DNA of 64,000 nucleotides from Pelagibacterales bacterium SAG-MED01 (GTDB taxonomy: Bacteria > Pseudomonadota > Alphaproteobacteria > Pelagibacterales > Pelagibacteraceae). The translations under genes and the position numbers were made by a program. The notes under the pieces are model-generated. The model was not told where the DNA came from. It ran no database searches and was given only the letters and a program-made list of their open reading frames with translations. The DNA is taken from assembly GCA_014654455.1 (NCBI GenBank), contig JACWCY010000005.1, positions 1-64,000 of the forward strand, read 5' to 3'. This document shows positions 26,840 to 57,301 of this stretch, piece after piece. Positions within the stretch are counted from its first letter, which is position 1; every line of letters begins with the position of its first letter.

Positions 26840-28069
26840 TTAAATTAAATTTCTTGCTACCCATTTGTGAAACTGATGGGTAGGCTGATCCATTATAGGT
26901 GAAAAATTTCCTCCGTCATAAGCTGGGGAATTTCTTCCATTTTGCATTCCTTCAATTGCATCTATATCTTCTAACATAACATCTTTCCAAAACCTTGCAT
27001 TTTCTTTTCTTAAGTCTTTTAATTCTTCTCCATTCGCACTGTTGTTTCCAATGTAATACATTTGCATATGTTCTTTAGTCTTATTAAATGAAACTGGCTC
27101 TAGCCAAAAAACATAAAAATGATCAACATGTAACCCAATCATTACATTAGGAAATAAAGCAATATATTCTGAATTTTTTAACAAACTTTTTTCCCAATGA
27201 GGAAAAATATCAAATTTTTTATTTCCTTTAATTAATTGTTCGTATTTTTTACTTCCTTGCCCAGCAAACCTATTAGGTAAACCTTGAATATGATAATGAT
27301 CATTAATACTGGAAACTTTATTTAACTCTGGATGAATTGTTGGTAAATGATAACTTTCACAGTAGTTTTCAATGGCAAATTTCCAATTACAATTAACATC
27401 TAAATTAAAATTACCATAATCATTAGAATGAATTATCAATTGTTGATCTTTATGGTTTATGAATTTCGACCATCTTTCTTCGAGAGGTTTAATATATTTA
27501 TCAAAACTAATTTCATTTGAATTGATATTTACAAATATAATATCCATCCATATTTTAGTCTTAACTTCCTTTAGATGACTTTTAGTTTTATCAAATTTTT
27601 TAAACTGATGGTTATTCAAACCACCAATGTGAGGTGTTGCTAGAAGATTTCCCTCAAAGTCATAAGACCAAGAATGGTAGGGACATCTGATTACATTTTT
27701 TAAATTGCATGGTTTGTCTAATAGTTTAAAGCCTCTATGACTGCAGACATTATGAAAAACTCGAATCTTCCTGTCTTTGTCTCTAATTAAAATAAGAGGA
27801 ATCCCGAGTAGATTGTATGGTTTAGCGTCTCCAGGATTTGGAATTGAACTTCCAACTCCAACAACTGTCCACTTATTGCAAAAAATTCTCTCCTTTTCGT
27901 ACTCTAAGTAAGCTTCGCTTGTATAGCACTCATTTGGAAGGCCTTTTGCGGCCTCTATTGGCTTATCCACAGCCTCTATTTTTTTTATATCCAAGATGTC
28001 TCCAAGGGTTTTATTTTTGTAATTTTGATCCACAAAAAAAATTATCATGAGCATCATTTTTGGCAACAA
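26840..28069 (-). CDS. Rieske-type ring-hydroxylating / demethylating oxygenase, alpha subunit
   Basis: Rieske non-haem iron oxygenase, about 400 residues. Rieske ligands are CSHRG (about residue 108) and CPYHSW (about 128); the mononuclear iron site is NYCESYHLPTIHPE (about 238) with a distal acid in DIDAIEGMQNG. Relatives include choline monooxygenase, glycine-betaine monooxygenase (GbcA) and aromatic hydroxylases. No reductase gene lies nearby. The start is uncertain; a GTG at 28033 (VDQNYKNKTLGD) fits as well as the upstream ATGs. It diverges from the metF-like gene. Confidence 0.85.
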   Translation of the reverse strand: MLPKMMLMIIFFVDQNYKNKTLGDILDIKKIEAVDKPIEAAKGLPNECYTSEAYLEYEKERIFCNKWTVVGVGSSIPNPGDAKPYNLLGIPLILIRDKDRKIRVFHNVCSHRGFKLLDKPCNLKNVIRCPYHSWSYDFEGNLLATPHIGGLNNHQFKKFDKTKSHLKEVKTKIWMDIIFVNINSNEISFDKYIKPLEERWSKFINHKDQQLIIHSNDYGNFNLDVNCNWKFAIENYCESYHLPTIHPELNKVSSINDHYHIQGLPNRFAGQGSKKYEQLIKGNKKFDIFPHWEKSLLKNSEYIALFPNVMIGLHVDHFYVFWLEPVSFNKTKEHMQMYYIGNNSANGEELKDLRKENARFWKDVMLEDIDAIEGMQNGRNSPAYDGGNFSPIMDQPTHQFHKWVARNLI

Positions 28070-28136
28070 ATTTCGATCAAATCCATTTGTTGAATTTCTT
28101 TGACAGCTTTTTTAAAAAGGATAATGATCTGGAAAA

Positions 28137-28865
28137 ATGAAATTTTCATTAGAAATTGGTCCTAACACAGACCTTGAAACGGTACCACAAGTAAGTGATG
28201 TATATATTACTATGTTACCAGGTGGTGATTATAAAGAGACCGCTCAAAAAGCTATTGAGCTTGTTACAAAAGGATTTAATCCTGTTCCACATTTTCCTGC
28301 TAGATCTATTCAAGACGAAAAAGAATTAAAAGATTATGTATCAAGATGCAAAGATGGAGGTGTAAAACAAGCTTTAATAATTGGTGGTGGTCGAGAACCA
28401 GCAGGAAAATTTGACAGCTCGTTTCAACTTTTAGAAACAGGTTATTTTGAAAAAATGAAGATAGGAGTCGCTGGACACCCAGAAGGGAGTCCTGATATCT
28501 CCGAATCAGATTTAGAAAAAGCTATGATAGATAAAAAGCCTTATGCTGATTATATTGTAACTCAATGGTTACTCAATCCTCAGCCTATCATAGATTTTAT
28601 CTCTAAACAAAGCGTACCAGTGCATGTTGGAATTACTGGGCCTCTAAAAATATCTAGCTTAATTAAATTTGCTAATATTGTTGGTGCAAAAAATTCCCTA
28701 AATTTTCTTAAATCTAATTTTAGTAAGGCGTTAGATTTATTGAAACCTAAAGACCCTAATGATTTAATTGGGAAAGTTAAATCGCATACTGATTTCTTCC
28801 ACATTTATACATTCGGCGGCTTGAAGGAAACTAACAAGTGGTTGAAGGAGAATGGTTATGTCTAA
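28137..28865 (+). CDS. Methylenetetrahydrofolate reductase-like protein
   Basis: A 242-residue MetF-family TIM barrel, about 50 residues shorter than typical MetF. Visible features are SLEIGPNTDLETVP, ITMLPGGDYKETAQ, NPVPHFPARSI, ALIIGGG and GVAGHPEGSPD, the last being the conserved folate/FAD region. It overlaps the GcvT-fold gene, so the pair is coupled. In the LigM-MetF arrangement of Sphingobium, MetF recycles methyl-tetrahydrofolate made by a demethylase; the same role is inferred here. Confidence 0.82.
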   Translation: MKFSLEIGPNTDLETVPQVSDVYITMLPGGDYKETAQKAIELVTKGFNPVPHFPARSIQDEKELKDYVSRCKDGGVKQALIIGGGREPAGKFDSSFQLLETGYFEKMKIGVAGHPEGSPDISESDLEKAMIDKKPYADYIVTQWLLNPQPIIDFISKQSVPVHVGITGPLKISSLIKFANIVGAKNSLNFLKSNFSKALDLLKPKDPNDLIGKVKSHTDFFHIYTFGGLKETNKWLKENGYV

Positions 28866-30216
28866 AGAATTTGACTATACTAAACTAAAACATGTTACTT
28901 CAGTTGATCAATCAGATCGTGAAGTACCATACAATTTAAGACAAAGCGGACCAACAAAAGTTGAGATGCTAATATCAACGAGGGTAAGAAAATCACCTTA
29001 TTGGCATTTATCAATGCAGGCAGGTTGTTGGAGAGCGACAGTTTATAATCGTATTTATCATCCTAGAGGCTATGTAAAGCCAGAAGATGGTGGTGCGATG
29101 GTTGAATATGATGCAATTGTAAATCACGTTACTATGTGGAACGTAGCTGTTGAAAGACAAATAAGAGTAAAAGGTCCTGATGCAGAAAAATTTACTGATT
29201 ACGTAATAACAAGAGATGCAACTAAAATTTCACCTATGAGAGCTAGATATGTAATTTTATGTAATGCTTATGGTGGAGTGTTAAATGATCCTATTCTTTT
29301 AAGAATTTCAAAAGATGAATTTTGGTTTTCTTTATCAGACTCTGACATAGGTATGTATTTACAGGGTGTTAATGCTGATGGCAGATTCAATTGTACAATT
29401 GAAGAAATTGATGTCAGTCCTGTACAAATACAGGGACCAAAATCTAAAGCATTAATGAAAGACCTGTGTGGTGATCAAGTTGATTTTGACAACATGCCTT
29501 TCTATGGTTTAGCAGAAGTTAAAGTTGGGGGAAGAAGTTGTGTAATTTCTCAATCAGGTTTTTCTGGTGAAGCTGGGTATGAAATATATCTTAGAGACTC
29601 TACTTTATATGCTGAAGATATGTGGAATGCAGTTCTTGATGCAGGAAAAAAACATCAACTAATGGTTATTGCTCCTGCTCACCACAGAAGGATTCAAGCT
29701 GGAATTCTTTCATGGGGACAAGATATGGATGTTCAACATAACCCATTTCAGTGTAATTTAGGTTACCAAGTTTCATTATCTGGAAAAGGTGAATGGAATA
29801 AAAAAGCTGACTATGTTGGTAAAACAGCTTTAGAAAAAATGGGTAAAGAGCTTAAGGACGGTAAAAAACCTTATAAACTTCAGTTAGTTGGACTTGAACT
29901 AGGAGGAAAACCTATAGAAGAGTACGCCCCTGATTTTTGGTTAATATCAAATGAAGGTGGTGGAGATCCTGTCGGATTTATTACTTCTCCTTGGTATCAC
30001 CCAGAAAAAGGTCAAAACATAGCAATGGGATATGTGCCATTTGATGGAACTTTAAATGCAAATGGATTTCCAAAAGGTAAGGTTGGAACAAAGTATAAAG
30101 TTCATTTACCAGAAAAATACTCAGACAAGGCAGGTACACCTGTTGATGCTGTGGTAGTGGATATTCCATTTAAAGAGTCTTTCAACGCCAATACTAGAGA
30201 AGTTGTAAAAGGTTAA
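28858..30216 (+). CDS. Long GcvT-fold demethylase (DmdA/LigM-like)
   Basis: A 452-residue folate-dependent demethylase. STRVRKSPYWHLSMQAG and TVYNRIYHPRG match the start of the DmdA-like group, VAVERQIRVKGPDAEKF and SDSDIGMYLQGV continue it, and SGFSGEAGYEIYLRD and ILSWGQDMDVQHNPFQCNLG lie in the folate domain. It is some 80 residues longer than DmdA, close to the length of O-demethylase LigM. ATG 28858 is preferred (GGAGA nine bases upstream) over 28852. The methyl donor is unknown: DMSP, aromatic methoxyl, betaine and others are open. Confidence 0.82.
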   Translation: MSKEFDYTKLKHVTSVDQSDREVPYNLRQSGPTKVEMLISTRVRKSPYWHLSMQAGCWRATVYNRIYHPRGYVKPEDGGAMVEYDAIVNHVTMWNVAVERQIRVKGPDAEKFTDYVITRDATKISPMRARYVILCNAYGGVLNDPILLRISKDEFWFSLSDSDIGMYLQGVNADGRFNCTIEEIDVSPVQIQGPKSKALMKDLCGDQVDFDNMPFYGLAEVKVGGRSCVISQSGFSGEAGYEIYLRDSTLYAEDMWNAVLDAGKKHQLMVIAPAHHRRIQAGILSWGQDMDVQHNPFQCNLGYQVSLSGKGEWNKKADYVGKTALEKMGKELKDGKKPYKLQLVGLELGGKPIEEYAPDFWLISNEGGGDPVGFITSPWYHPEKGQNIAMGYVPFDGTLNANGFPKGKVGTKYKVHLPEKYSDKAGTPVDAVVVDIPFKESFNANTREVVKG

Positions 30217-30378: not shown

Positions 30379-30921
30379 ATGTTTGGTGAATTTCTTAATA
30401 TAGTTTTTAAATCTATCAAATTAGATAGAACACTATACAGTGATAATAAAAATTTTGGTGAGGCTTCAATATATTTCGCAGGTCTTATTATGATTTTAGA
30501 TGGGATCGCAGGTGCAGTTGCAGCTAATACAGTGATTAAAACTGCTATTGCAATGTCTGGTCTTACAGCAATTTTAACTTGGTTTGTTTGGTCAACACTA
30601 ATATTTGTAATAGGTGTAAAGTTATTTCCTGATAAAAATACAAAAATTCCCTTTAAAAAAGTATTAACTGCAATCGGATTTGCTCACGCTCCTGGTCTAT
30701 TAAGATTTTTTGCAATAACTCCAGAATTGATGGTACCTATAATATTTTTAACTCAATTTTGGATTTTTGCTGCTTTAATAATTTCGACAAAACAAATTTT
30801 AAATCTTAAATCTAATCTTAAATCTTTTGGAATTGTATTTTTATCCTTTTTAATTATAGCTTTTTTATCAATCTCTTTTGTTATGAGTAGAATGGATATG
30901 TTGCCAGTTAATAATATTTAA
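30379..30921 (+). CDS. YIP1-family membrane protein
   Basis: A 180-residue protein with five hydrophobic segments and the YIP1 pattern: an N-terminal amphipathic stretch (VFKSIKLDRTLYSDNK), then FKKVLTAIGFAHAPGLLRF, the usual Yip1 helix with A-x-PGLL. Function in bacteria is unknown. It converges on the small Zn-ribbon gene, their stop codons overlapping by four bases. Confidence 0.75.
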   Translation: MFGEFLNIVFKSIKLDRTLYSDNKNFGEASIYFAGLIMILDGIAGAVAANTVIKTAIAMSGLTAILTWFVWSTLIFVIGVKLFPDKNTKIPFKKVLTAIGFAHAPGLLRFFAITPELMVPIIFLTQFWIFAALIISTKQILNLKSNLKSFGIVFLSFLIIAFLSISFVMSRMDMLPVNNI

Positions 30922-31070
30922 ATTGGAAAAATTGTCTTTGATATTCTACAAGATTTACAAATTTTAAAGTTTGTAAGAATTAAATTCTGGGAAACACTTT
31001 CATCTTCTTTTTTGCACTCTTCGCATATGTTATCTAAATCTTTTTCTTTTAACTCTTTATCTTCAATCAT
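30918..31070 (-). CDS. Small Zn-ribbon-like protein, 50 residues
   Basis: An ATG at 31070 opens a 50-codon frame, MIEDKELKEKDLDNICEECK and onward. Two cysteine pairs, CEEC (about residues 16-19) and CKSC (about 38-41), are arranged as in a small zinc ribbon. It overlaps the end of the DUF3726-like gene by eight bases, so it is probably the fourth gene of that operon. No family recognised. Confidence 0.6.
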   Translation of the reverse strand: MIEDKELKEKDLDNICEECKKEDESVSQNLILTNFKICKSCRISKTIFPI

Positions 31071-31674
31071 TATCCGTAAGTCCAGCTCCTGCAGCTCCTT
31101 GTTTTAAGCTATCTGTTTCCTCAACAAAAGTATTTTCAGATAATTTATATAGATTTTTCCATTCTTTTTCAGAGAAAAAGTCTTTATTTTCCAAAAAAAT
31201 AACTTCAACTTTTTTTGCAATTGAAGGGAACTCATTTTTTATAAATTTGGATAAAATATTTACATTAAAGTTTAATAAAAGAGTATTTTTTTCAAATTTT
31301 AGTAATATTCTTTTTCCAACTATTTCTGAACTTCTGCTCAAAAAAGGTAAAAATAATATTGGATGAGCTATTTTATAAAAAGTAATCTTTTTTAAAGATT
31401 CAAGTGTTTTGATTTGATCTAAAAAACGAACCCCTAAATCAACGGGACAAAGAGATGACTTATTAGATTTATTATTTTTCTTGATAATTGTTAATTTTTC
31501 AAATTTTTTTTTGTTTATAAGTTTATAATATTGACTTAAATTCTTTATTCCTGGAAAACCAAATAATTCTAGTTGTCTAACACCTTTTGCTATTTCCTCA
31601 GCTACGCCCCAAGAAAATCCAACTGCACGACTAGCCCTTTTTGATGTTGTCTCAATTTCACTTAAAGATTTCAT
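31063..31674 (-). CDS. DUF3726-like protein
   Basis: A 203-residue soluble protein. The N-terminus SLSEIETTSKRASRAVGFSW followed by GVAEEIAKGVRQLE matches the start of DUF3726 proteins (Ala/Gly-rich helix with G-x-SWG-x-AEE). It ends in a Gly/Ala-rich tail (QGAAGAGLTDND). The family has no described function. It starts three bases after the stop of the 553-residue gene and is coupled to it and to the Zn-ribbon ORF. Confidence 0.62.
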   Translation of the reverse strand: MKSLSEIETTSKRASRAVGFSWGVAEEIAKGVRQLELFGFPGIKNLSQYYKLINKKKFEKLTIIKKNNKSNKSSLCPVDLGVRFLDQIKTLESLKKITFYKIAHPILFLPFLSRSSEIVGKRILLKFEKNTLLLNFNVNILSKFIKNEFPSIAKKVEVIFLENKDFFSEKEWKNLYKLSENTFVEETDSLKQGAAGAGLTDND

Positions 31675-31677
31675 AAG

Positions 31678-33339
31678 TTAATTATGTGATTTATAAACCC
31701 ATTGTTCATCATAATTTTTTAGTTCATTTGGAAGCGGAGCACCTTGGAACATACATATTCTAAGCCACTTATCAGATCTTGGATCAAACTTTAATGCACC
31801 AAAAAAAGACAGTTTTAATCTTAACATATCGATTGGGATAATATTTTCACTAATTGTATTATCCTGAATTTCTGAGTATGGAAATTTTTCAATGATAAAC
31901 GCTCTTCTGATTACATGTCTCAAATCATCATGATCAATTAAAAAATGACCTATCTTTAATTTTTTTTTAGATGTTAACAATCTATCGTATAATTTTTTTA
32001 TATCTCTCGCGATAGCGAGAGGTTGTTCTAGATCTGAACCTTGTTCTTTAAAACGATCAGCAATTCTAGGTTCCTCTTTATTTTTTGAAATAAACCAAAA
32101 TTTTTTATGATTTTCTTTTTTTTCAAAATCTATAGTAAGAATATTTGGGTATTTTTTTTCTAAAATAGCTTTTAAATCTTCTATAGTTCTATCGGTTGGA
32201 ATATTGAAATATTTTTCCTCATCTGAGCTCATTTTTTTGATAAGGGGTTGTGTAATTTTAGCAAATGGTTCCATCATAATAGATACAATATACTCAATAC
32301 ATTCTTCACAAGTTTCTTTTTCTAGCCATAAGTAAATCTCATTGAAGGGATAATCCTTTTGAAAATTAAATTGTTTCTCTAAGTAATTTAGGAATTTTTC
32401 TACATCTTCAAGTAACAGCTTAATCTTATTAAGTTGGTACTCACTCTCAGTATTCCAACTAGTAATATTTTTAATAGAGTTTCTGACACAATTTATGAAT
32501 AAATCGCTATCTTCAGCTTTAACATTTTTTAACTCTCTAATTTTTTTTAAAGCTGTTTCTCTACAAAGTATCCAATTATTCAACAAAGTTGGATGATTAA
32601 CAATAAAAGGTGCCATACCTAAACCTGTTGAATTTCCGATTCCAAGATTTTTACAAATTTTTGGATCCAGCTTAACTGCAATCTTTGGATTTCTATGTTT
32701 TGCAACATGATTTACTTGATCAAAAGTAAACTGTCTAACTAAATAAACTAACATCATTTCTAATCTAAAAGGACCATTTATTTCTTCTCTATTCTTAATT
32801 CTAAAACGATCTGCTAGTCCAAATTTACCTGATCCATAAACAGCTGTTGTTCTATATAGATAACCTACTTTTTCTAGTAAATCCAAATCTGGCTGAATTC
32901 CTTTACTTAAATTTTCAACAACATGATCAAAAACTCGTACTGATTTATTGGCTCTAGATAAAGTTAATTCTTTATAAGACAATCTTCCAACTTCTTGTTT
33001 TGGAACTTCATTTTTTAATCTTTCAACATCTTTTTTAAGAGGCACACCGTCATGAAGAGTAAATGCAGCATCCCACTTAGTTGCTATTACCCTATCTGAT
33101 CTTTCATCTTCATTAATTTTATTTGCGAAACAAACTAGTGAATAAACCCGGTCATTTTTTTTAAAAGAATAAATTGCTGTACCATATCCTTTTTCGTCTA
33201 AATCAAATAAGTCTCTTTTATAATCCCAATCTTTAAATTCATTTAAAAAACTTCGTAAAAAAGATAATCTAGATTGATGAAAAGAACCAAGTCTTGAAAG
33301 CTTCATTATAATGTTTGGATCTCGTAATTTTATATTCAT
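31678..33339 (-). CDS. Large uncharacterised soluble protein, 553 residues
   Basis: No family recognised. The protein is soluble and charged, with no signal peptide or membrane helix. It contains conserved-looking blocks: SRLGSFHQSRLSFLRSF at the start, a central QFTFDQVNHVAKHRNP, GNSTGLGMAPFIVNHPTL near residue 236, ETCEECIEYI, IDHDDLRHVIRRAF and the terminal MFQGAPLPNE. The His/Asp-rich and Gly-rich motifs give it an enzyme look. It lies two bases after the M19 dipeptidase gene, so a joint pathway is likely. Confidence 0.75.
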   Translation of the reverse strand: MNIKLRDPNIIMKLSRLGSFHQSRLSFLRSFLNEFKDWDYKRDLFDLDEKGYGTAIYSFKKNDRVYSLVCFANKINEDERSDRVIATKWDAAFTLHDGVPLKKDVERLKNEVPKQEVGRLSYKELTLSRANKSVRVFDHVVENLSKGIQPDLDLLEKVGYLYRTTAVYGSGKFGLADRFRIKNREEINGPFRLEMMLVYLVRQFTFDQVNHVAKHRNPKIAVKLDPKICKNLGIGNSTGLGMAPFIVNHPTLLNNWILCRETALKKIRELKNVKAEDSDLFINCVRNSIKNITSWNTESEYQLNKIKLLLEDVEKFLNYLEKQFNFQKDYPFNEIYLWLEKETCEECIEYIVSIMMEPFAKITQPLIKKMSSDEEKYFNIPTDRTIEDLKAILEKKYPNILTIDFEKKENHKKFWFISKNKEEPRIADRFKEQGSDLEQPLAIARDIKKLYDRLLTSKKKLKIGHFLIDHDDLRHVIRRAFIIEKFPYSEIQDNTISENIIPIDMLRLKLSFFGALKFDPRSDKWLRICMFQGAPLPNELKNYDEQWVYKSHN

Positions 33340-33341
33340 GC

Positions 33342-34307
33342 TTAAATAGTTTTATAAAAATTATACCAATTATTTCCAAGTATCCCATTGGTCTCAGTGT
33401 CTGAAAAACCAACTTTATTTAATCCTTTTTCTAAATTTTTAAAACCTCTAGCATCTTCAAACCACTTAGGCTGTTTTGGAAAACCAGGTTTATTTTTTGA
33501 ACCCTCACCATAGTTTTTACTTTTTGACCATGTGCCATTTCTCATCCATTCAACAACTTCATCAGGTTGATTTAGACAAAGATCAGATCCAATACCAATA
33601 TTATTAACGTTCATTATTTCAGCAGTTCTTGCAGCCATTTCACAAAAACTATCAATAGAACAATTCGTATTATCTTTTAGATGATGGGGATAAAGTGATA
33701 ATCCTAAAATACCACCACTATCACTTAAAGTTTTAAGTAATTCAGAAGATTTATTTCTTTTTGCTGCATGCCAAAATGATGGATTAGCATGAGTAATTGC
33801 TATAGGCTTTTCACTTATCTCTATTGCATCAAATGTACTTTTTTCTGCAGAGTGAGACATGTCAACAACTATACCGACTCTATTCATCTCTTTAATTACT
33901 TCACGACCAAAATTAGTTACACCACTATCGATTTTTTCATAACAACCAGTGGCTAACAAAGACTGATTATTATATGTCAGTTGCATAAATTTGCATCCGA
34001 GCTGATGTACTTTTTCAACTAAATTAATATCATCCTCTATAGGAGAACAGTTTTGAAAACCAAAAAAAATAGCTGTTTTATTTTCTTTGTCTGCTTTTTC
34101 AATATCTTTATAACTTCTTCCTAAAAAAATTAAATCTGAATTGTCTTTAAACAATTTTTCCCACTTTTGAATTTCAATTAAAAGTTCATCAAAATCCTCG
34201 TGATATACGATTGTTACATGAACTGCATCTAGACCAGCTTCTTGATTAATTTCAAAAATTTTTCTTGACCAATTACAGTACTGGAGGTTGTCTATTTTAA
34301 ATTTCAT
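33342..34307 (-). CDS. M19 family membrane-dipeptidase-like amidohydrolase
   Basis: A 321-residue TIM-barrel hydrolase of the renal dipeptidase family. Zinc-site features include MSHSAEKST (about residue 150), ITHANPSFWH and GIGSDLCLNQPDEV; the usual HxD pair near the N-terminus is missing (VHVTIVYHEDFDE lies there instead). M19 members cleave dipeptides or cyclic imides/amides. It heads the run M19-553aa-DUF3726-Zn ribbon, so its substrate may be an unusual amide of that pathway. Confidence 0.85.
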   Translation of the reverse strand: MKFKIDNLQYCNWSRKIFEINQEAGLDAVHVTIVYHEDFDELLIEIQKWEKLFKDNSDLIFLGRSYKDIEKADKENKTAIFFGFQNCSPIEDDINLVEKVHQLGCKFMQLTYNNQSLLATGCYEKIDSGVTNFGREVIKEMNRVGIVVDMSHSAEKSTFDAIEISEKPIAITHANPSFWHAAKRNKSSELLKTLSDSGGILGLSLYPHHLKDNTNCSIDSFCEMAARTAEIMNVNNIGIGSDLCLNQPDEVVEWMRNGTWSKSKNYGEGSKNKPGFPKQPKWFEDARGFKNLEKGLNKVGFSDTETNGILGNNWYNFYKTI

Positions 34308-39422: not shown

Positions 39423-40010
39423 TTATAAAGATTTAAAACCAAACTCCAAAGATGCATCTGTAATAGAGTGATAAAAAGACTCGCCAAAACTTCTTAAAGC
39501 AAATAATCTTACTTTATCAGGGTTATTATCCAGCATATCGACTGTGAAAGCTATTCCATTATAAATAGAATTTATTGAATTGTTTTTTTCTAAGATATTA
39601 AAATTAAATGGACACCCTTTTTTTAAAACCTCTTTAACATCTTGTCCTTCTATTTCAATAATAGCTTTCGAATGAGATAAATTAGTTACTGCAAAATCTG
39701 TATCATTTAAATTTTGTGAAATATTTTTTAGTAAATCTTTTTTTGTTGAAACCAAAAGCCAATTTTTCGGTCCATTCCATAAAATTCTTGTATCATTATT
39801 ATTTATTACAGTTAATGGCTTATCATTTAATTTTAAACCATCAACATCAATACTTTCAATTGAAACTGTAGAATTTTTATACTGAACTATTTGAACTATT
39901 AATAAATTTTTTATCTCAGAGATTTTTAAGAGATTGTTTTCATTTTTGTCTTCATAGTCACCAAACTGACCTATTGAATGAACATTTGCTAAAGCTGATA
40001 TCAAACTCAT
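39423..40010 (-). CDS. Heterotetrameric sarcosine oxidase gamma subunit (SoxG-like)
   Basis: A 195-residue GcvT-fold-like subunit, the last gene of the soxBDAG run. The stretch [26 protein letters not shown] is typical of SoxG, as is the C-terminal [18 protein letters not shown]. It overlaps soxA by four bases. In N-methylglutamate dehydrogenases the homologous subunit is MgdD, so either assignment is possible. Confidence 0.85.
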
Positions 40011-43003
40011 GATCTTACCCTTTCACCTTTTGGATCAACATAATGTGAAGAAACTATCTCAACTGGAATTACTTTATTTTTAAGCGGAGACATTACAAAT
40101 AACTTTTCTCCAATCATGTTTTTTCCATCTTTTAATATTGCTAAAGAAAATGGATTATCATACTCAACACTCCAACACGAAGCTGAAATATAACCTAATT
40201 TTGGATTTGGCAATGGTGCATTCGAATCTTTAACTAAATGTGACCCTTCTGGAATACTTGTTTTTTTATCTAAGGGTACAACTCCAACAACTTTTTGTCT
40301 ATCTTCAGCTATAAATGCTTCTCTAGTTAAAGATCTTTTACCAATAAAATCTTTCTTTTTACTTAATAAACCTTCAAGAGAATTATCATAAGAGATAGTT
40401 CTTCCATCTAGCTCAGATCCTGCAACGTGACCCATTTCAATTCTAAGAGTTGATAATGCCTCAGTTCCGTATGGCTCTATTTTAAATTCTTGGCCAACCT
40501 CCATAATTTTTTCCCACATAAAGTTCCCATTATCAGATTCAACATTTACTTCATATGCAAGCTCGCCTGAGAAAGAAATTCTAAAAATTCTAGCTTTTAC
40601 ACCAAACAAGTCTCCTTCAATGTAGCCCATAAAAGGTAACCCTTCGTTTGAAACATCAGATTTTGGGAATAGTTTTTGCAATAAATCTCTAGATTTAGGC
40701 CCTGCAATTGCTGCACCTGCCCATTGTTCTGTAGTTGAAACTACATTTACATTTAATTCAGGCCAAACTAATTGCAAATAATATTCTAAATGTGAAAGAA
40801 CGTTTGCAGCTTGTGCGGTAGTAGTTGTCATATGATAATGATTTTCTGAAATTCTTGTAGTTGTTCCATCATCCATAACAATTCCATCTTCTCTTAACAT
40901 TACCCCGTATCTTGCTTTACCTACAGGTAACTTTAACCATGCATTTGTATAAACTCTATTAAGTAGTTCTGCTGCATCAGGTCCTTTAATGTCTATTTTA
41001 CCTAATGTAGTCACATCACATACACCTACATTTGTTCTCACATTTTTTGCCTCCCTTTTTGATCCTTCAAATAAATTTTCGTTCCCTTGTTTATAGTATC
41101 TAGGTCTCAACCAAACACCTGCATCTACAAATATCGCATTATTTTTTTCGTGCCATGTATGCATTGGAGATTTTCTTGTTGGTTTTGAATGTTTACCTAC
41201 TTCCCTTCCAACAATTGCACCAATAGAAACTGGTGTGTATGGAGGTCTAAAAGTAGTGTGACCAACATTTGGTACTATTTTATTTTCAATATTAGATACT
41301 AATTGTAAACCATTTAAATTGCTCGTTTTACCTTGATCAGTTGCCATTCCAAGAGTGGTATATCTTTTAACATGTTCAATTGATCGATAACCCTCCTTTA
41401 ATGCTATTTCTACGTCAGAAACCGCAACATCATTTTGAAAATCTAAAAATCTTTTGTAATTCTTTCCCTTAGGTAATGGCACACACCAAAATTTATCATG
41501 TGTTGTTGATTTTTTTTCAACAATATTTGGTAAAGAAACTTTATTGTCATTATTAGTGATTTTTTTTGATAGCTCATAAGCAGTTTCAAAAGAACTTTTT
41601 AAAGTCCTATCTAAAGTATAAGATCCATTTGCTGCACCTAATGTTGTTTCATTTTGCTTTGATGTTCCTGGAACAAATGCATCAATGTCTTCGTTGAACT
41701 TTGTTTTATTTCCTGATTGTGAAGCTAAGTGAATTGTTGGTGTCCAAAAACCAGAAACACAAATGCAGTCACACTTAATATTTTCTACTGATCCAAGTTG
41801 CTCTTTATTATTTGAAATCTTTGCAATATCAGCTGATTTTACTTTTTTATAACCTTGAGCAGCTACTACTACATAAGAAAACTTAATGTTTATTCCTAAA
41901 TTTTTTGCTTCCTCAACTATTTCAGATTGAGGATCTTTTCTTGTATCTAAGATAATTGGATCAATACCATTTTTCTTAAATTCAATTGCTGTTTCATAGC
42001 CGCTATCATTGTTGGTAAATATTAAAGGATTTCTTCCAACTAATACTCCATAAACTTTTAAGTATTCTTTTGCTGCTGATGAAAGCATTACCCCTGGAGT
42101 ATCGTTATTGCCAAAAACTATTGGTCTTTCAATTGATCCTGAAGAAATTAAAACTTCTTTTGCTCTAATGTACCAAAGTCTTTGTTTTGGGTGAAACTTT
42201 TTTGTTTTTGGTAAATGATCGCTTATTCTTTCAGACATCACTAACATATTGTGATCATAATAACCAAAAACTTGTGATCTATTTTTAACTGTCACATTAG
42301 GCATTTCTTTAAGTTCAGAAATAATCCCCTCAGCCCATTCTTTGCCTGTTTGGTTTCCTATATTTACATCGCTTGTTAATAAGGTTCCCCCAAATCTAGA
42401 TTTATCTTCAGCTAAAATTACTCGTGCTCCATTTTTAGCAGCAGCATAAGCACTTGCTAAGCCTGATGGGCCTGAACCAGCAATTAACAAATCACAATAT
42501 TCGTATTTATGCTCATATCTTTCTTTATCATGTTTTGTTGATGCAACTCCTAGTCCTGCTGCTCTTCGAATAAATGGCTCATAAACTTTATACCAAAAGC
42601 TCTTTGGCCACATAAATGTTTTGTAATAAAATCCAGCTGGAAGAAATATTTTTAAAAAGTTATTTATTGCTCCAATATCAAAGTTAACACTTGGCCAGCA
42701 ATTTACACTCGTAGCCTCTAAACCTTCAAAAAGCTCCTGTTCTGTGGCTTTAATGTTTGGTTCAGTTTCACCATTTCTATATAGTTGAACTATTGCATAT
42801 GGCTCATCAACTCCAGCACCAAAAAAGCCTCTTGGTCTATGATATTTAAAACTTCTACCAATTAGATGAACACCATTAGCTATTAAAGCTGAAGCTAATG
42901 TATCTCCTTCATAACCATAATAAGTTTTACTATTAAACTTAAATGATAGTTTCTTATCTCTATTTATTAAACCACCATCTGATAATCGAAAATTTTGATC
43001 CAT
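40007..43003 (-). CDS. Heterotetrameric sarcosine oxidase alpha subunit (SoxA-like)
   Basis: A 998-residue subunit in three parts: an N-terminal 2Fe-2S-ferredoxin-like domain ([14 protein letters not shown], no ferredoxin cysteines as in known SoxA), an NAD-binding Rossmann part ([18 protein letters not shown] near residue 172) and a GcvT folate domain from about residue 640 ([35 protein letters not shown]). It oxidatively demethylates sarcosine with transfer to tetrahydrofolate. It could be MgdC of an N-methylglutamate dehydrogenase instead. Confidence 0.9.
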
Positions 43004-43272
43004 TACGAATTATCCTCATTAGCTTTAAATGTTCTAAATATTTCATGAGTGGCAGTATCTCTCTCAACTTTTATCCATTGTCTACATCCTGATAAATGTT
43101 GCCATAATTCCAAATGCTTTCCTCTTAAACTTTTTCTATTGTAGACAAAATTATTCCAGTCTTGATCGGATACTTCTTTGTTTAATTCTGGTCTTTTAAC
43201 AGTTGCATCACCTCCATAAGAAAATTCATTTTGTGATCTCATTCCACAATGTGGACATTTAATATGAAGCAT
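43003..43272 (-). CDS. Sarcosine oxidase delta subunit (SoxD-like)
   Basis: An 89-residue zinc-binding subunit with CPHCGMRSQNEFSYGGDA and a further HLSGCRQWIKVERD motif, the hallmark of SoxD. It overlaps soxA by one base and is separated from soxB by none, so order soxB-D-A-G is intact. MgdB is its counterpart in N-methylglutamate dehydrogenases. Confidence 0.92.
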   Translation of the reverse strand: MLHIKCPHCGMRSQNEFSYGGDATVKRPELNKEVSDQDWNNFVYNRKSLRGKHLELWQHLSGCRQWIKVERDTATHEIFRTFKANEDNS

Positions 43273-44529
43273 TTAAGAAATCCAAGTTTTTGTACCAAGT
43301 CCCTTTTCATCAAGTAAGTGACCTGTATTAAATCTATTTAAGTTATATCCTGCGTTTAATTCATGAACTCTATCTTGAGCAATAGTATGTGCAAATGTCC
43401 AACCAGATGCTGGTGTAGCTTTGAATCCACCATAACACCATCCACAATTCAAATACAAACCTTCAATATGAGTTTTGTCGATAATAGGTGAACCGTCCAT
43501 GGACATATCCATAATTCCACCCCAAGTCCTAAGCATTTTTAATTTACTTAAGAATGGCATCATTGCTATTCCTTCCGTAAGTACATGTTGAAGAGTTGGC
43601 AGATTTCCTCTTTGAGCATAACTATTATATCCATCTAAATCTCCGCCCATAACCATCTCACCTTTGTCTGATTGGCTTATGTAAAAATGTCCAGCACCAA
43701 AAGTAACAACTCTATCTAAAACTGGTTTGACTGGTTCTGAAACACATGCTTGAAGAAGATGAGTTTCAACAGGTAAAGTCATATTAAGCTTATCTGCTAA
43801 AATATTAGTACTACCTGCAACACATAATCCAATTTTTTTAACTTTAATATTTCCCCGAGAAGTTCGAACACCTTCTACTTTTCCACTTGAAATATCAAAA
43901 CCTGTTACTTCACAATTTTGAATTATATCGACACCCATAGAGTCTGCTTGTCTAGCATAACCCCATGCTACCGCATCATGTCTCGCTGTTCCTGCACTAG
44001 GCTGCATAAGTCCTCCAAAAATTGGAAATCTGACATTCTCAGAAAAGTCAGCCATAGGAATAATTTCTCTTACTTGTTCTCTGTTTAATAATTCTGCATC
44101 AATACCGTTCAACCGCATTGAATTTCCTCGTCTTGCATAAACATTCATTTGTGCATCTGAATGAGCTAAGTTGATAATTCCTCTTGGAGAAAACATTACA
44201 TTGTAATTTAAATCTTGGCTCATCCTTCTCCATAAATCCATTCCAAATTCACTAAATAACGCATTATCATCATGCATATAATTTGATCTTATTATCGTTG
44301 TATTACGACCAACATTTCCACCACCAATCCATCCTTTTTCAATTATAGCTACATTGGTTATATTATGCTCTTTTGCTAGATAATATGCAGTTGCTAAACC
44401 GTGCCCGCCACCCCCGATAATAACAACGTCATACTCTTTTTTGGGAGTTGGGTCTTTCCAGGCTAAATCCCAATTTTTATGATTAGAAAAAGCATTTTTA
44501 ACAAGACTAAATATTGAATATTTTTGCAT
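43273..44529 (-). CDS. Sarcosine oxidase beta subunit (SoxB-like)
   Basis: A 418-residue DAO-type FAD subunit with GGGGHGLATAYYLAKEH (about residue 38), EKGWIGGGNVGRNTTIIRS with the flavin-binding region, and GWCYGGFKATPASGWTFAH near the C-terminus. It carries out amine oxidation in the heterotetramer. First gene of the soxBDAG operon, diverging from fhs with a 128-base gap that must hold both promoters. Confidence 0.93.
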   Translation of the reverse strand: MQKYSIFSLVKNAFSNHKNWDLAWKDPTPKKEYDVVIIGGGGHGLATAYYLAKEHNITNVAIIEKGWIGGGNVGRNTTIIRSNYMHDDNALFSEFGMDLWRRMSQDLNYNVMFSPRGIINLAHSDAQMNVYARRGNSMRLNGIDAELLNREQVREIIPMADFSENVRFPIFGGLMQPSAGTARHDAVAWGYARQADSMGVDIIQNCEVTGFDISSGKVEGVRTSRGNIKVKKIGLCVAGSTNILADKLNMTLPVETHLLQACVSEPVKPVLDRVVTFGAGHFYISQSDKGEMVMGGDLDGYNSYAQRGNLPTLQHVLTEGIAMMPFLSKLKMLRTWGGIMDMSMDGSPIIDKTHIEGLYLNCGWCYGGFKATPASGWTFAHTIAQDRVHELNAGYNLNRFNTGHLLDEKGLGTKTWIS

Positions 44530-44657: not shown

Positions 44658-46340
44658 ATGAGCGAAGTAAAATCAGACATTCAGATAGCAAGAGAGGCTA
44701 AAATGGAACCTATTAAGGACATATTAGCTAAAATAAATGTACCTGATGAAAGTTCAGCTTTCAGCCCAATGGGCAGACATATTGCAAAAATAAATTTAGA
44801 ATATTTAAATACTCTCAAAAAAAAAGATGGAAATTTAATTTTAGTAACTGCAATTACTCCAACTCCTGCAGGTGAAGGTAAAACCACAACCTCTGTAGGG
44901 TTAAATGATGGCTTAAATAAAATTGGAAAAAAATCAATTGTATGTCTTCGAGAACCTAGCTTAGGACCCTCTTTTGGAATGAAAGGTGGTGCTGCTGGTG
45001 GTGGGTATGCTCAAGTTGTTCCTATGGAGCAAATTAATTTACATTTTACTGGAGACTTCCATGCAATTACTTCAGCTCATAATTTACTGTCAGCTTTAAT
45101 TGATAATCATATTTATTGGGGTAACAAACTTAATATAGATGTAAGAAGAATTTCTTGGAGAAGAGTTATGGATATGAATGATAGATCTTTAAGGTCAATC
45201 ATTGTAGATCTTGGAGGAGTAGCAAATGGTTATCCAAGACAAGATAGCTTTGATATTACTGTTGCTTCTGAGCTAATGGCAATATTTTGTTTATCAACTG
45301 ATCTTAAAGATTTAGAAAATAGAATAGCAAATATAACTATTGGATATACAAGAGAGAAAAAGCCAGTTCTTGCCAAAGATTTAAACGCTCAAGGACCAAT
45401 GACGGTATTGTTAAAGGATGCAATAAGACCAAACGTTACTCAAACATTAGAAAACAACCCTGCGATTATTCATGGTGGTCCCTTTGCGAATATAGCTCAT
45501 GGATGTAATTCTGTAATAGCTACTAAAGCAGGACTTAAACTAGCCGACTATGTTGTAACCGAAGCAGGGTTTGGTGCAGACCTAGGTGCAGAAAAATTTT
45601 TAGATATTAAATGTAGAAAATCAGGAATTAAACCTGATTGTGTAGTTATCGTAGCAACCATCAGAGCTTTAAAAATGCATGGTGGAGTTTCAAAAGAAAA
45701 TTTAAAAAAAGAAAATATTGATGCTTTAAAAAAAGGTTTAGTTAATTTGGAGAGACATATTAATAATACAAGAAAGTTTGGTCTCCCAGTAACTATAGCT
45801 GTTAATCATTTTATAACAGATACAGATCAAGAGATGAATACTCTTCTTGATTTTTGTAAAACTCAAGGAGTTAAAGCCTCAAAATGTACACACTGGTCTA
45901 ATGGAAGTGAAGGTACTAAAGAATTAGCACAAAATGTAGCTGAAATCTGTGAGGATAAAAAAAATACTTTTAAATATCTATATGAAGACAGTTTACCTTT
46001 GTTCAAAAAAATTGAAAAAATAGCACAAGAAATTTACCATGCGAAAGAAGTTGTTGCAGATACAAAGGTTAGACAACAATTAAAAGATTTTGAGGAAAAA
46101 GGATATGGAAAACTTCCAGTCTGTATTGCAAAGACACAATATAGTTTCTCAACAGACCCGAATTTAAAGGGTGCGCCTACTGGACATGTTCTTCCTGTAA
46201 GGGAAGTTAAATTATCCTCTGGAGCAGAATTTATTGTTGTTGTTTGTGGAGAAATAATGACAATGCCAGGATTACCAAGAGTTCCAGCAGCAGACTCGAT
46301 TAAGCTAAATAAAGAAGGTGAAATAGAAGGTTTATTTTAA
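44658..46340 (+). CDS. Formate-tetrahydrofolate ligase
   Basis: A 560-residue enzyme joining formate and tetrahydrofolate with ATP. Motifs [16 protein letters not shown] (P-loop, about residue 67), [22 protein letters not shown] and [15 protein letters not shown] are intact. Working in reverse it would recover ATP from formyl-tetrahydrofolate made by demethylation, which fits its place opposite soxBDAG. RBS-like AAAGGACCG precedes the start. Confidence 0.96.
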
Positions 46341-47299: not shown

Positions 47300-47381
47300 A
47301 ATAAATTATTAATTTATTGCTATTTTCATCATTTTGTTAGTAAAATACAGATATAAATTTATTTCGAATGGAGATTACTTT

Positions 47382-48713
47382 ATGACAAAAGTAGCAATTA
47401 TTGGTGCTGGACCTTGTGGTTTGTCTATGTTGAGATCTTTCGAACATGCTGAAAAAAAAGGTGAAAAAATTCCTGAAATAGTTTGCTTTGAAAAACAAGA
47501 AGATTGGGGTGGTTTATGGAACTATAGTTGGAGAACTGGTTCAGATCAATATGGTGACCCTGTTCCAAATAGTATGTATCGATATCTTTGGTCAAACGGA
47601 CCTAAAGAGTGCTTAGAGTTTGCTGACTATTCTTTTGACGAACATTTTGGAAAACCAATTCCATCGTTTCCTCCTAGAGAAGTCTTATATGATTATATTA
47701 TTGGTAGATTAAGTAAGGGAAATTTTAAAGACAAAATAAAGTTTAATACAAGAGTAATTAATACAATATTTAAAAATGAAAAATTCGAAATTAGTTATCA
47801 AGACAAGATTAATAATAAAGTTTTAAAAGATAATTTTGATTATATAGTTGTTTCAACTGGTCATTTCTCTGTCCCGTTCATTCCTGAATACAAAGGTATG
47901 AAATCTTTTCCTGGAAGAATTATGCATTCACATGACTTTAGAGATGCTGAAGAATTTAGAGATAAAAATGTAATAGTTTTAGGAAGCAGCTATTCTGCAG
48001 AAGATGTTGCGCTTCAATGTAATAAATATGGAGCAAAAAGCGTAACTATAGGTTATAGACACAATCCTATGGGATTTAAATGGCCTAAAGGAATGAAAGA
48101 AGTGCATTATCTAGATAAGTTAAAAGGTAAAAAAGCAATTTTTAAAGATGGCACAGAACAAGATGCAGACGTTATAATTTTATGCACTGGGTATTTACAT
48201 CATTTCCCATTTTTAGAAGAAAACTTACAATTAAAAACTAATAACAGGCTTTATCCACCAAAGTTATATAAAGGAGTGGTATGGCAAGATAATCAAAAAC
48301 TTTTATATCTTGGTATGCAAGATCAGTTTCATACATTTAATATGTTCGACTGTCAGGCTTGGTATGCACGGGACGTAATAATGAGCAAAATTAAAATGCC
48401 AAATAAAATGGAAATTGAGAATGATATTAACAAATGGGTATCAATGGAGGAAAAGTTAGAAAATCCAGATCAAATGATCGATTTTCAAACTGAATATACA
48501 AAAGAACTTCATGAAATGTCAGATTATCCCGAAATAGATTTTGAATTAATTAGAAAACATTTTAAAGAATGGGAGCACCATAAAATTGAAGATATAATGA
48601 CTTATAGAAATAAATCTTTTTCCTCTCCTGTTACTGGCTCTGTTGCGCCAATCCATCATACGCCATGGGCTAGTGCTATGGATGACTCACTTAAAACTTT
48701 TTTAGATAAATAA
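47382..48713 (+). CDS. Trimethylamine monooxygenase
   Basis: Flavin monooxygenase of the bacterial Tmm group, 443 residues, converting TMA to TMAO with NADPH and O2. FAD motif GAGPCGLSMLR, the FMO signature FPGRIMHSHDF, NADP motif VLGSSYSAEDVALQ and the LCTGYLHHFPF segment are present. ATG 47382 (MTKVAIIGAG) with GGAG nine bases upstream is preferred to the TTG-like early frame from 47334. It sits beside the TMAO transporter and tdm, supporting the substrate. Confidence 0.94.
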   Translation: MTKVAIIGAGPCGLSMLRSFEHAEKKGEKIPEIVCFEKQEDWGGLWNYSWRTGSDQYGDPVPNSMYRYLWSNGPKECLEFADYSFDEHFGKPIPSFPPREVLYDYIIGRLSKGNFKDKIKFNTRVINTIFKNEKFEISYQDKINNKVLKDNFDYIVVSTGHFSVPFIPEYKGMKSFPGRIMHSHDFRDAEEFRDKNVIVLGSSYSAEDVALQCNKYGAKSVTIGYRHNPMGFKWPKGMKEVHYLDKLKGKKAIFKDGTEQDADVIILCTGYLHHFPFLEENLQLKTNNRLYPPKLYKGVVWQDNQKLLYLGMQDQFHTFNMFDCQAWYARDVIMSKIKMPNKMEIENDINKWVSMEEKLENPDQMIDFQTEYTKELHEMSDYPEIDFELIRKHFKEWEHHKIEDIMTYRNKSFSSPVTGSVAPIHHTPWASAMDDSLKTFLDK

Positions 48714-48721
48714 TTTAAAAA

Positions 48722-50875
48722 TTAAGCTATACCAAGATGTTGTTTTCTTTTTTCAACCCAAGTTCTAATCAAATTATCAAATATTAGACCAATAAACGCA
48801 ACACAAATACCAAGTGTTAGTCCAATTCCTGCGCCATTTTTATCTGACAGTGCTTTTAGAATATATTGTCCTAAATCCTCAGTTCCAATAAACGCTCCAA
48901 TAATAACCATAAATAATGCAAACACGATTGTTTGATTTAAACCTAGCATCATATGTGGAAATGCTAGAGGAAATTCTATTTTAGTTAATCTTTGAAATTT
49001 ATTAACACCAGACATTGTTGCTGCATCATGTAAAGCAGTTGGAACACTTCTAAGTCCCTCAATCGTATATCTTGTTGCTGGTATTGTTGCATAAACAATA
49101 ACAGCTATTAATACTGATGTATCAGTAATACCGAAAAGCATCATTACTGGAATTAAATAAACAAAAGATGGAAATGTTTGAAAAATATCACAAACACCCA
49201 ACATAAAGCTTGTTGAATGTTTGTTTTGAAAACATAAAGTTCCAACAGTAAATCCAATTATACAAGAAACTATTACACCAAACGTTGCCATATAAGTCGT
49301 GACCAAAGCTCTGTCCCACCAAGGACTTAGGGCTATAAATAATGTTAATCCACAAACAACTAAAGCTGAACGAACTCCTCCAATTAAATATCCTGCTCCT
49401 ACAACTAAAACTAAAGTGGCAACAGCTGGCATTCTTAAATATAAAGCTCTCATTGGTTGAAGGACTTCTACAATCAACCATGTATTAAAAGCTTTTATAT
49501 AAACAAAAAAAGTATCAAAAATCCAATCTACTCCTTTGTTCCAAAAGTCAGCTGTTGATATTCCTTTATTATGTGGAACTTCAAATAAATAATTAAATCC
49601 CTGTTTAAAATAAAAAGACCCTAAATAAGCCAGTACAATTCCAATAAAAACTGCAATACCAAAATATATTGCATTTTTGTTTCGCTCATAAAAAGTTAGA
49701 TTACCAAAATAATCTACCTGCTTATTTGCCCATGCAAGAGACATTTTATCTAATAAAATTGCAATTAAACTTATGCAAAGACCTGCTTCTAATGCTAATC
49801 CAATATTTAACTGATTTAAAGCTAACAATAAATTAAACCCTAAACCTTTTGCACCAATAAAGGCTGATATAACTGCCATTGAAAAACAAACCATAATTAC
49901 TTGGTTTACCCCAATTAAAATATCTCTTCTTGCTGTTGGAATTAATACCTTAAACATTAATTGCCAATTATTACATCCACTCATTCTCCCAGCTTCAATA
50001 ACTTCTGGTGGCACAGCTCTTAAACCTAGAAGTGTCAATAATATCATTGGAGGAACAGCGACAATCATAGTTATGATTACGGCTGCATGATCACCAACTC
50101 CAAATAGAACAAGTGCTGGCACTAAGACAGCATATTGAGGCATTGTCTGCATAACCAATAGTATTGGATATAAAGCCTTCTCTACACGTTTATTTTTAAA
50201 TGCTGCAATCCCTAAGCCTAAACCAAAAACAAATGATAGTGGTGCAGCTACTAATATAAAAGAGAGTGTTTGCATTGAAGGTTTCCATTGACCAAATATA
50301 GAAATATAAACCATTACTAAACTTGCAAATAGAGCCAAACCTTTTCCATTTAATTGATATGCCAATATAGCTGCTCCGGCTGCAACTATTGTCCAAGGAA
50401 GACCAGGCATTTTTGCCCAAGAATTAGAACCAACGAAATCCCAACTTGTAAATGCTACGATAGTTTTAAGACCTCCTAATAAAATATCTCTAATTAATTC
50501 AATCAAAAAAGTCATGACTGAAGTTATTTCTCTTGTTATCTGAAGAACTAAAGGTCGAGTTTTATACGATTGAGTATCTTCATTCCAAAACTCTATGGGT
50601 ATCCATTCATTCATTAAAAAAAATAATGAGTCGTTTATCCAAATAGGTAGCCACCCAAGTAATGGGGGCAATCTCCAAAAGACATCGAAAGGATAATATC
50701 TTACTTCTTTACCTAAAAAAATATAGAAACTTTGATTAGGATCTTTTACAAACTCTGCTTGACCACGTATAAATTTATATGTTTCTGGAACTTCGATTGC
50801 AAAACATAATCCAAAAAAAATAATTAACAAAAGCAACCATTGAAATGCTTTTGGATATTTTTTTATAAATTCCAT
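48722..50875 (-). CDS. TMAO / betaine ABC transporter permease, tandem type (TmoW-like)
   Basis: A 717-residue permease with two complete permease domains in one chain. Each has an EAA loop: EAGRMSGCNNWQLMFKVLIP (near residue 295) and ALHDAATMSGVNKFQRL (near 620). A long N-terminal stretch is typical of the TMAO-type permease. Its ATPase partner is encoded four bases upstream and its binding protein (tmoX) about 2.6 kb upstream on the same strand. Confidence 0.85.
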   Translation of the reverse strand: MEFIKKYPKAFQWLLLLIIFFGLCFAIEVPETYKFIRGQAEFVKDPNQSFYIFLGKEVRYYPFDVFWRLPPLLGWLPIWINDSLFFLMNEWIPIEFWNEDTQSYKTRPLVLQITREITSVMTFLIELIRDILLGGLKTIVAFTSWDFVGSNSWAKMPGLPWTIVAAGAAILAYQLNGKGLALFASLVMVYISIFGQWKPSMQTLSFILVAAPLSFVFGLGLGIAAFKNKRVEKALYPILLVMQTMPQYAVLVPALVLFGVGDHAAVIITMIVAVPPMILLTLLGLRAVPPEVIEAGRMSGCNNWQLMFKVLIPTARRDILIGVNQVIMVCFSMAVISAFIGAKGLGFNLLLALNQLNIGLALEAGLCISLIAILLDKMSLAWANKQVDYFGNLTFYERNKNAIYFGIAVFIGIVLAYLGSFYFKQGFNYLFEVPHNKGISTADFWNKGVDWIFDTFFVYIKAFNTWLIVEVLQPMRALYLRMPAVATLVLVVGAGYLIGGVRSALVVCGLTLFIALSPWWDRALVTTYMATFGVIVSCIIGFTVGTLCFQNKHSTSFMLGVCDIFQTFPSFVYLIPVMMLFGITDTSVLIAVIVYATIPATRYTIEGLRSVPTALHDAATMSGVNKFQRLTKIEFPLAFPHMMLGLNQTIVFALFMVIIGAFIGTEDLGQYILKALSDKNGAGIGLTLGICVAFIGLIFDNLIRTWVEKRKQHLGIA

Positions 50876-50878
50876 AAT

Positions 50879-51910: not shown

Positions 51911-51971
51911 AAATTATAATAACGTTATATGATATTAAGATAAAATTAAATCTATATAATTATTTTCCTTC

Positions 51972-52900: not shown

Positions 52901-52934
52901 ATTTATATCTTACACAAATTGATCAAAAAAAAAA

Positions 52935-53393: not shown

Positions 53394-53405
53394 GAAATCT
53401 TAATT

Positions 53406-53441
53406 AAAAAAAATCTCCCCCAACTTTGTTGGGGGAGATTT
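53406..53441 (-). terminator. Rho-independent terminator after tmoX
   Basis: AAATCTCCCCCAAC, a short loop, then TTGGGGGAGATTT form a perfect 13-pair hairpin, 22 bases beyond the tmoX stop on the minus strand, followed by TTTTAATT. It ends the tmoX message before the three small genes and tmoVW. Confidence 0.92.
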
Positions 53442-53463
53442 ATAAATTTAATTTTTATTTACC

Positions 53464-54432: not shown

Positions 54433-54462
54433 TTTTCCTCCTAGTACTAGTTTAATGCTTAT

Positions 54463-54491: not shown

Positions 54492-54531
54492 CACATAGAT
54501 ATTTATATATTATAAAAACAAAATTTAAAAA

Positions 54532-57221: not shown

Positions 57222-57223
57222 GT

Positions 57224-57270: not shown

Positions 57271-57301
57271 TTTAAGTTGCACGAAAAATAAAGTTAATAA
57301 T

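Follow-up and report, generated by a model that had tools for sequence, protein, structure and literature searches.

A conserved gene module of an M19-family hydrolase, a 553-residue protein and a DUF3726 protein in a SAR11-type genome: the probable core of a pathway for a cyclic N-methyl betaine, most likely homarine

Acinetobacter degrades trigonelline with a two-component flavin monooxygenase, through an N-formyl intermediate, amide hydrolysis and oxidation of a semialdehyde. Homarine, a nitrogen-containing ring compound, is an osmolyte that algae produce. Homarine catabolism in environmental bacteria is reportedly the subject of a paper by Ferrer-Gonzalez et al. (2026, Nat Microbiol 11:1531). 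This 2026 paper, on a conserved homarine pathway, is cited in PMC13390433, which states that N-methylglutamate dehydrogenase (Mgd) is involved in homarine catabolism. Here we analyze a stretch of 64,000 nucleotides (the window) from Pelagibacterales bacterium SAG-MED01 (assembly GCA_014654455.1, contig JACWCY010000005.1, positions 1 to 64,000) and, within it, a four-gene operon at 30918-34307. We suggest, with a probability of roughly two in three, that its genes encode the central enzymes for breaking down a cyclic N-methyl betaine, most likely homarine (N-methylpicolinate), by way of N-methylglutamate to glutamate.

The operon consists of four head-to-tail open reading frames (ORFs):

33342-34307, minus strand: M19-family amidohydrolase, 321 residues (PF01244; closest solved relative 2i5g)
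31678-33339, minus strand: 553-residue protein without a known family (ORF)
31063-31674, minus strand: DUF3726 protein, 203 residues (PF12525), most likely related by fold to the Ldh_2 dehydrogenases but shortened, its C-terminal tail conserved
30918-31070, minus strand: 50-residue peptide with two CxxC pairs, apparently accessory (ORF)

Spacers of 2 and 3 bases lie between the first three genes, and the DUF3726 and peptide genes share 8 bases. A preliminary description of this DNA had taken them for one tightly spaced unit, and the ORF coordinates agree with that. Since the best 80 of 580 relatives' loci, found in a scan of public genomes that may omit records of the source genome itself, are all labeled Pelagibacter, Pelagibacteraceae or Pelagibacterales, the source genome (1.17 Mb in 19 contigs) is of SAR11 type. 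The order M19-553-DUF3726 is kept in SAR11 relatives and the 50-residue peptide, with both CxxC pairs, occurs in 75/81 Pelagibacterales loci (window included); hence the arrangement is not a product of chance. The peptide was not found at any of 17 loci of other genera in the family (the stretches L021 and L030 end before its place) and looks like a genus-level accessory rather than part of the core.

Counting the source genome, 30 of the 99 genomes in the family sample and 29 of the 398 in the phylum sample carry the gene for the 553-residue protein. It also matches 168 plasmid records, one of them haloarchaeal, and plasmid NC_018291 of Phaeobacter inhibens DSM 17395 has two such places; none of 60 pattern matches in viral contigs encodes a relative. 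Neighborhoods were compared at all 32 other places of the phylum sample (28 genomes), with labels assigned by profile or nearest reference. A DUF3726-like gene adjoins the 553 gene in 31 of them, and at the last one (L164) such an ORF is visible in the gene listing, having been lost to the overlap filter of our script. An M19 gene lies within 7 kb in 29, with a further one visible at L171. Other neighbors are aldehyde dehydrogenase (ALDH, 19 places), LysR (18), BCCT (16), RidA (10) and Ldh_2 (7); all of these except Ldh_2 were labeled by nearest reference, so that a few may be unrelated. The gene order is thus conserved rather than scattered, as expected of the single functional unit proposed earlier.

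Many clusters of other bacteria hold further genes beside the module. In Phaeobacter inhibens DSM 17395 the cluster consists of RidA, LysR, ALDH, M19, 553 and DUF3726; Sulfitobacter has RidA, LysR, ALDH, M19, BCCT, 553 and DUF3726; Pararhizobium and Aminobacter have LysR, ALDH, M19, 553, DUF3726, Ldh_2 and a glycine-betaine ABC transporter. In the SAR11 relatives of other genera, represented by 16 stretches, ProX-ProW(-ProV) or another ABC transporter mostly precedes the module; seven of the stretches have an ALDH, all of one subfamily. The recurring transporters are mainly, though not exclusively, of betaine kinds (BCCT and glycine-betaine ABC). Consequently, the earlier statement that no transporter or regulator is included holds beside the window operon and does not hold for the clusters of other genomes, with their betaine transporters and LysR. 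A diverged subtype (L040, L042 and L166; found on Sinorhizobium pSymB and in Alloyangia) combines IclR and 553 with M19, a protein encoded where DUF3726 normally lies and an ABC transporter of another kind, and probably serves another substrate. A Mesorhizobium ciceri plasmid (L043) carries a distant 553-like gene, beside which neither M19 nor a DUF3726-like gene was found.

A further set of genes lies at 39423-44529, on the strand of the operon, in the order of a heterotetrameric soxBDAG operon:

43273-44529, minus strand: soxB-like beta subunit, MgdA-like, about 9 kb from the operon (beta tree)
43003-43272, minus strand: soxD-like delta subunit, 89 residues
40007-43003, minus strand: soxA-like alpha subunit, 998 residues (alpha tree)
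39423-40010, minus strand: soxG-like gamma subunit, 195 residues (weak similarity, 17% identity, E 1e-9)

Reference copies for the trees were labeled, and their functions assumed, from their own neighbors: mgs genes marked Mgd (L240, L244 and L245, although the listing for L245 has mgsB- and mgsC-like genes only), and glyA or serine ammonia-lyase marked sarcosine oxidase (L241, L242, L247 and L248). With these labels, the window copy is grouped with mgs-linked Mgd at 100/100 in the beta-subunit tree, where the second and third SAR11 kinds fall on the sarcosine-oxidase side. The alpha-subunit tree agrees with this, and its Mgd group includes the Phaeobacter cluster copy, whose partner there is the Aminobacter copy (100/99). 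To judge by the trees, the window's soxBDAG-like operon is of the Mgd type. The source genome has a second soxA-like gene (G000:C16:88487-91483), 47% identical to that of the window, whose adjoining beta subunit groups away from Mgd.

The genes are also physically linked to the module elsewhere. In one genome (G013) soxB, a soxD-sized ORF, soxA, soxG, M19, 553 and DUF3726 are consecutive, and in three further stretches of SAR11 relatives soxA-soxG stand just upstream of a transporter and the module. Together these make 4 of the 16 stretches from other SAR11 genera (L222, L224, L228 and L231) in which genes like soxBDAG adjoin the module, and in Phaeobacter P10 soxBDAG lies beside LysR-ALDH-M19-BCCT-553. 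In the family sample the window-type alpha subunit lies within 12 kb of the 553 gene in 19 of 26 genomes that have both; for the second SAR11 alpha copy the figure is 0 of 26, with a contig shared in eight. Family-level co-occurrence was tried as a discriminator of the two copies and fails, because the counts are nearly the same: each type is found in 26/30 genomes with 553 and in 7/69 and 8/69 without it (these counts leave out the G056 and G067 fragments as well as type-3 rows, which are at about 41-42%). Only linkage and the trees separate them.

Across the phylum, alpha subunits were scored as Mgd type if at least 52% identical to the Phaeobacter copy, with two candidates per genome; labeled Mgd references reach 55-56% and sarcosine-oxidase references 44.6-46.2%. 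Such a subunit is present in 19 of the 28 other genomes with 553 and in 29 of 369 genomes, of any class, without it (kinship uncorrected). Within the window's class the share is 19/19.

What could such a set of genes do? Modeling the chemistry on the established degradation of N-methylpyridinium compounds (trigonelline), we propose the following route. The 553-residue protein, as the catalytic subunit and with the DUF3726 protein as its partner subunit, would reduce the pyridinium ring to a 1,4-dihydropyridine and then open it oxidatively between C5 and C6, cleavage of C5=C6 by O2 yielding an N-formyl-N-methyl enamine with an aldehyde at C5. This step is assigned to these two proteins because each of the neighbors already has a use. 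The M19 enzyme would then hydrolyze off the N-formyl (amide) group. The resulting 2-methylimino intermediate might be reduced (Ldh_2 branch) or hydrolyzed to methylamine (RidA branch), the aldehyde dehydrogenase would oxidize the C5 aldehyde to the second carboxylate, and the soxBDAG-like Mgd would take the methyl group off as a one-carbon unit. If correct, C2-C5 of homarine together with its carboxylate would become the five-carbon skeleton of glutamate, and C6 would leave as formate. A formate-tetrahydrofolate ligase is encoded in the window at 44658-46340. That the pathway is one for an unusual amide or cyclic compound had been suggested before; this is broadly right and fits the neighbors.

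Two details of the clusters can be read in terms of this scheme. For the ALDHs of two non-SAR11 clusters (Phaeobacter and Pararhizobium), the NCBIfam models that come nearest are alpha-ketoglutaric semialdehyde and 2,5-dioxovalerate dehydrogenase, with scores of 473-489 bits that stay below the cut-offs of 750-770; such enzymes would suit the expected C5 product. Of the nine places in other classes, eight have a RidA-like gene and none Ldh_2, the ninth stretch starting at a contig end; the remaining 23 places have Ldh_2 in eight and RidA in four, as read from the gene listing. Such a split would fit two exits from one imine, namely reduction to an N-methylamino acid or hydrolysis freeing methylamine. 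Orthology of the SAR11 cluster ALDH with that of the Roseobacter clusters was expected and was not found.

The M19 protein is a clear member of its family by sequence (PF01244, E 6e-70, 236 bits, cut-off 26), and it aligns with 2i5g, which we take to be PA5396 of Pseudomonas aeruginosa, at E 7e-58 over residues 5-317 of 321. The binuclear metal site of M19 enzymes, known from human renal dipeptidase, is built from an HxD motif, a bridging Glu, two His and an Asp. The window protein retains His152, His173 and Asp242, has no N-terminal HxD and carries Gln85 where the bridging Glu would be. The alteration of the N-terminal motif noticed in the preliminary description is therefore real and extends further than was thought. 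It is also general, as read from the alignment: Gln takes the place of the bridging Glu in 12/12 aligned cluster members, and HxD is absent in all 11 that reach the region. For the window enzyme we expect a mononuclear or metal-poor amidohydrolase. In Neorhizobium galegae pNgVX the M19 gene (L039:11377-12323) matches as two pieces in different frames, either a broken gene or a sequencing error.

The DUF3726 protein matches PF12525 with 79.2 bits (gathering cut-off 22.1) and gives no Pfam Ldh_2 row at E up to 1. Its structural model, with a predicted local distance difference test score (pLDDT) of 84.5, tells more. The first 15 VIA-align rows, which we take from the entry names to be Ldh_2 throughout, are dehydrogenases of that fold with Z 8.9-10.6 over 156-182 residues (root-mean-square deviation 3.4-9.4), and the next row has Z 5.4. 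Foldseek finds the same fold with probabilities up to 1.00, at E values of at least 0.02 (none below 0.001). The aligned ranges span nearly the whole of targets that are 312-361 residues long, compared with 203 here; the middle part missing from the DUF3726 protein is presumably the NAD(P)-binding domain of Ldh_2, so that this dehydrogenase domain is absent.

A DUF3726 profile aligned by hhalign to an Ldh_2 profile gives E 2.8e-6, in an alignment that includes one archaeal member itself matching Ldh_2; with SAR11 members alone E is 0.0011 (probability 21%), and against a single Ldh_2 sequence the result is negative (E 0.07). Five other proteins at the DUF3726 position were searched against Pfam: two match Ldh_2 (E 5e-9 and 6e-9, 36 bits against a cut-off of 38.8), one of them also matching DUF3726, two match DUF3726 only and one, the L040 protein of the IclR subtype, matches neither. 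On this evidence, DUF3726 is most likely a shortened Ldh_2 relative that has no NAD(P) domain. A haloarchaeal cluster (L036) has ALDH, a 553-like gene, BCCT and, at the DUF3726 position, a 317-residue, weakly Ldh_2-like protein that may show the state preceding the shortening. The C-terminal tail of DUF3726 is nearly invariant in SAR11, of low confidence in the model and in parts kept in distant members, as if it docked into a partner.

The 553-residue protein, described beforehand as lacking a recognizable family, has kept that standing. No Pfam match comes near a cut-off (best E 0.02), and neither NCBIfam (E up to 1) nor the PDB sequences (phmmer, E up to 10) gave any. A PDB profile search likewise did not place it, and a Pfam scan of 16 relatives gave scattered single-member matches only. 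Its AlphaFold2 model, built from a shallow 39-sequence alignment of relatives at 70-85% identity, has a mean pLDDT of 67.5; Foldseek and VIA-align gave no placement with this weak model (best VIA row Z 5.4 over 86 residues). Remote-homology and AlphaFold-based searches thus reached no well-known enzyme family, and the model is too weak for the fold to be called new. Across 16 relatives, down to 24% identity, 36 positions are invariant. They include no His and one Asp, contrary to the conserved His/Asp blocks described earlier, and 27 of them are Arg, Gly, Asn, Ser, Pro, Tyr or Trp. Eighteen of the 36 sit in low-confidence loops of the model, at most a hint that these loops may be ordered by a partner or a cofactor.

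A further and more speculative suggestion, which we would sooner doubt than accept, is that the two proteins form a new kind of ring-opening enzyme. It would combine a protein of unrecognized fold with a subunit derived from an Ldh_2 imine or keto-acid reductase and devoid of the NAD(P) domain, the conserved C-terminal tail of the latter contributing to the active site. In Alphaproteobacteria, other Pseudomonadota and haloarchaea this one core would then act on several N-heterocyclic substrates.

A number of observations weigh against homarine degradation as the function of the operon. The 553-residue protein matches no cofactor-binding family. The operon of the window genome has neither an ALDH nor Ldh_2 nor a betaine transporter beside it; that genome does keep an ortholog of the SAR11 cluster ALDH (75% identity) at 77426 of the same contig and, on other contigs, two Ldh_2 genes. 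The SAR11 cluster ALDH belongs to another subfamily and has other models as its nearest. At 46% identity to the Phaeobacter copy, the window's own alpha subunit falls below the 52% cut, so that its kinship with Mgd depends on the trees, of which the alpha tree joins its kind to the Mgd group at 89/98, not a starred value. None of the nine genomes of other classes with 553 reaches Mgd-level identity, for which the presence of RidA may account. Mgd and mgs genes also serve methylamine use, and the linkage could be plain clustering of one-carbon genes. The homarine operon is reportedly named homABCDER, and its five genes and regulator would suit ALDH, M19, 553, DUF3726, Ldh_2 and LysR, although they may prove to be other genes. 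A literature search gave no match for this name and, beyond the citation in PMC13390433, no gene-level account of homarine. Ruegeria pomeroyi DSS-3 takes up homarine and draws it down quickly, according to PMC12817926; a search of its megaplasmid alone, run without a positive control, gave no 553 match.

The same facts can be explained in other ways. The module might open another cyclic or quaternary N-methyl compound, such as trigonelline, pipecolate betaine or proline betaine, also ending at glutamate or 2-oxoglutarate. The differences in transporter type among clusters would then find an explanation, and the diverged IclR subtype does suggest that the core serves more than one substrate. 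We nevertheless regard this as unlikely, if worth keeping in mind, since the Mgd-type neighbor operon and the C5-semialdehyde-like ALDH fit C2-C5 of homarine best. Proline-type betaines would need only demethylation.

It is also conceivable, though quite improbable, that 553 and DUF3726 are a chaperone or regulatory pair and M19 the sole catalyst of the unit. No match to a cofactor-binding family by either protein, and the missing dehydrogenase middle domain of DUF3726, would be natural for such a pair; invariance of 36 positions of 553 in 16 sequences as distant as 24% identity would not be, nor would the retention of both proteins alike in clusters with RidA and in those with Ldh_2. The dipeptides, hydantoins or imides that the preliminary description had put forward would make the operon a hydrolytic pathway. 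M19 is a dipeptidase family and one archaeal cluster is near hydantoinase/oxoprolinase genes, but the loss of HxD and of the bridging Glu from the cluster M19 proteins, and partners elsewhere that are betaine transporters, ALDH and Mgd-type genes, make this very improbable indeed.

The window holds other one-carbon genes. A methylamine/one-carbon island extends over 47334-63390:

47334-48713: trimethylamine monooxygenase
53464-54432: OpuAC-type binding protein
54532-56871: trimethylamine N-oxide demethylase
58698-60167: glutamine-synthetase-like gene
60195-63390: mgsABC-like genes

On the other side of the operon, at 26840-30216, lie genes for a Rieske oxygenase, for a protein with distant similarity to methylenetetrahydrofolate reductase and for a GcvT/DmdA-like protein, whose 228 bits are well below the dimethylsulfoniopropionate demethylase cut-off of 410; the latter two genes occur together in 10 of 12 same-genus stretches.

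If our suggestion is true, the operon tells which SAR11 genomes can use homarine, and the 553-residue protein is an enzyme whose family, as far as our searches went, has no solved or named relative. An older question is touched by the linkage as well. According to a 2011 report (PMC3160333), it 'is unclear' which of the two soxBDAG operons in SAR11 strain HTCC1062 encodes Mgd; by the trees, the window copy near the operon is the Mgd-type one.

How, then, does the locus compare with systems already described? The word 'undescribed' in the preliminary description is doubtful, since the 2026 homarine pathway of environmental bacteria is cited in PMC13390433; the lack of a place for the 553-residue protein stands. 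What the present analysis adds is the origin of DUF3726, the failure of 553 to join a family and the assignment of the sox operon. Our literature search gave no match for DUF3726 or for trigonelline degradation. The M19 protein shares with 2i5g both the loss of HxD and the change of the bridging Glu to Gln. With Ldh_2 dehydrogenases (type II malate/lactate, ureidoglycolate and delta1-piperideine-2-carboxylate reductase) the DUF3726 protein has the fold in common, but it is shorter, has no middle domain and does not match Pfam Ldh_2. Trigonelline degradation in Acinetobacter resembles the proposed route in leading from an N-methylpyridinium carboxylate to an N-formyl intermediate, amide hydrolysis and semialdehyde oxidation; it differs in its two-component flavin monooxygenase, of which no counterpart was seen beside the module. 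The N-methylglutamate pathway (gmaS, mgsABC, mgdABCD) is represented in the window by the soxBDAG-like operon, of Mgd type by the trees, and by mgsABC-like genes; the difference is that the Mgd-type operon is linked here to the M19-553-DUF3726 module. That link is also the likeness to published homarine catabolism, in which Mgd is involved according to the citing paper (PMC13390433).

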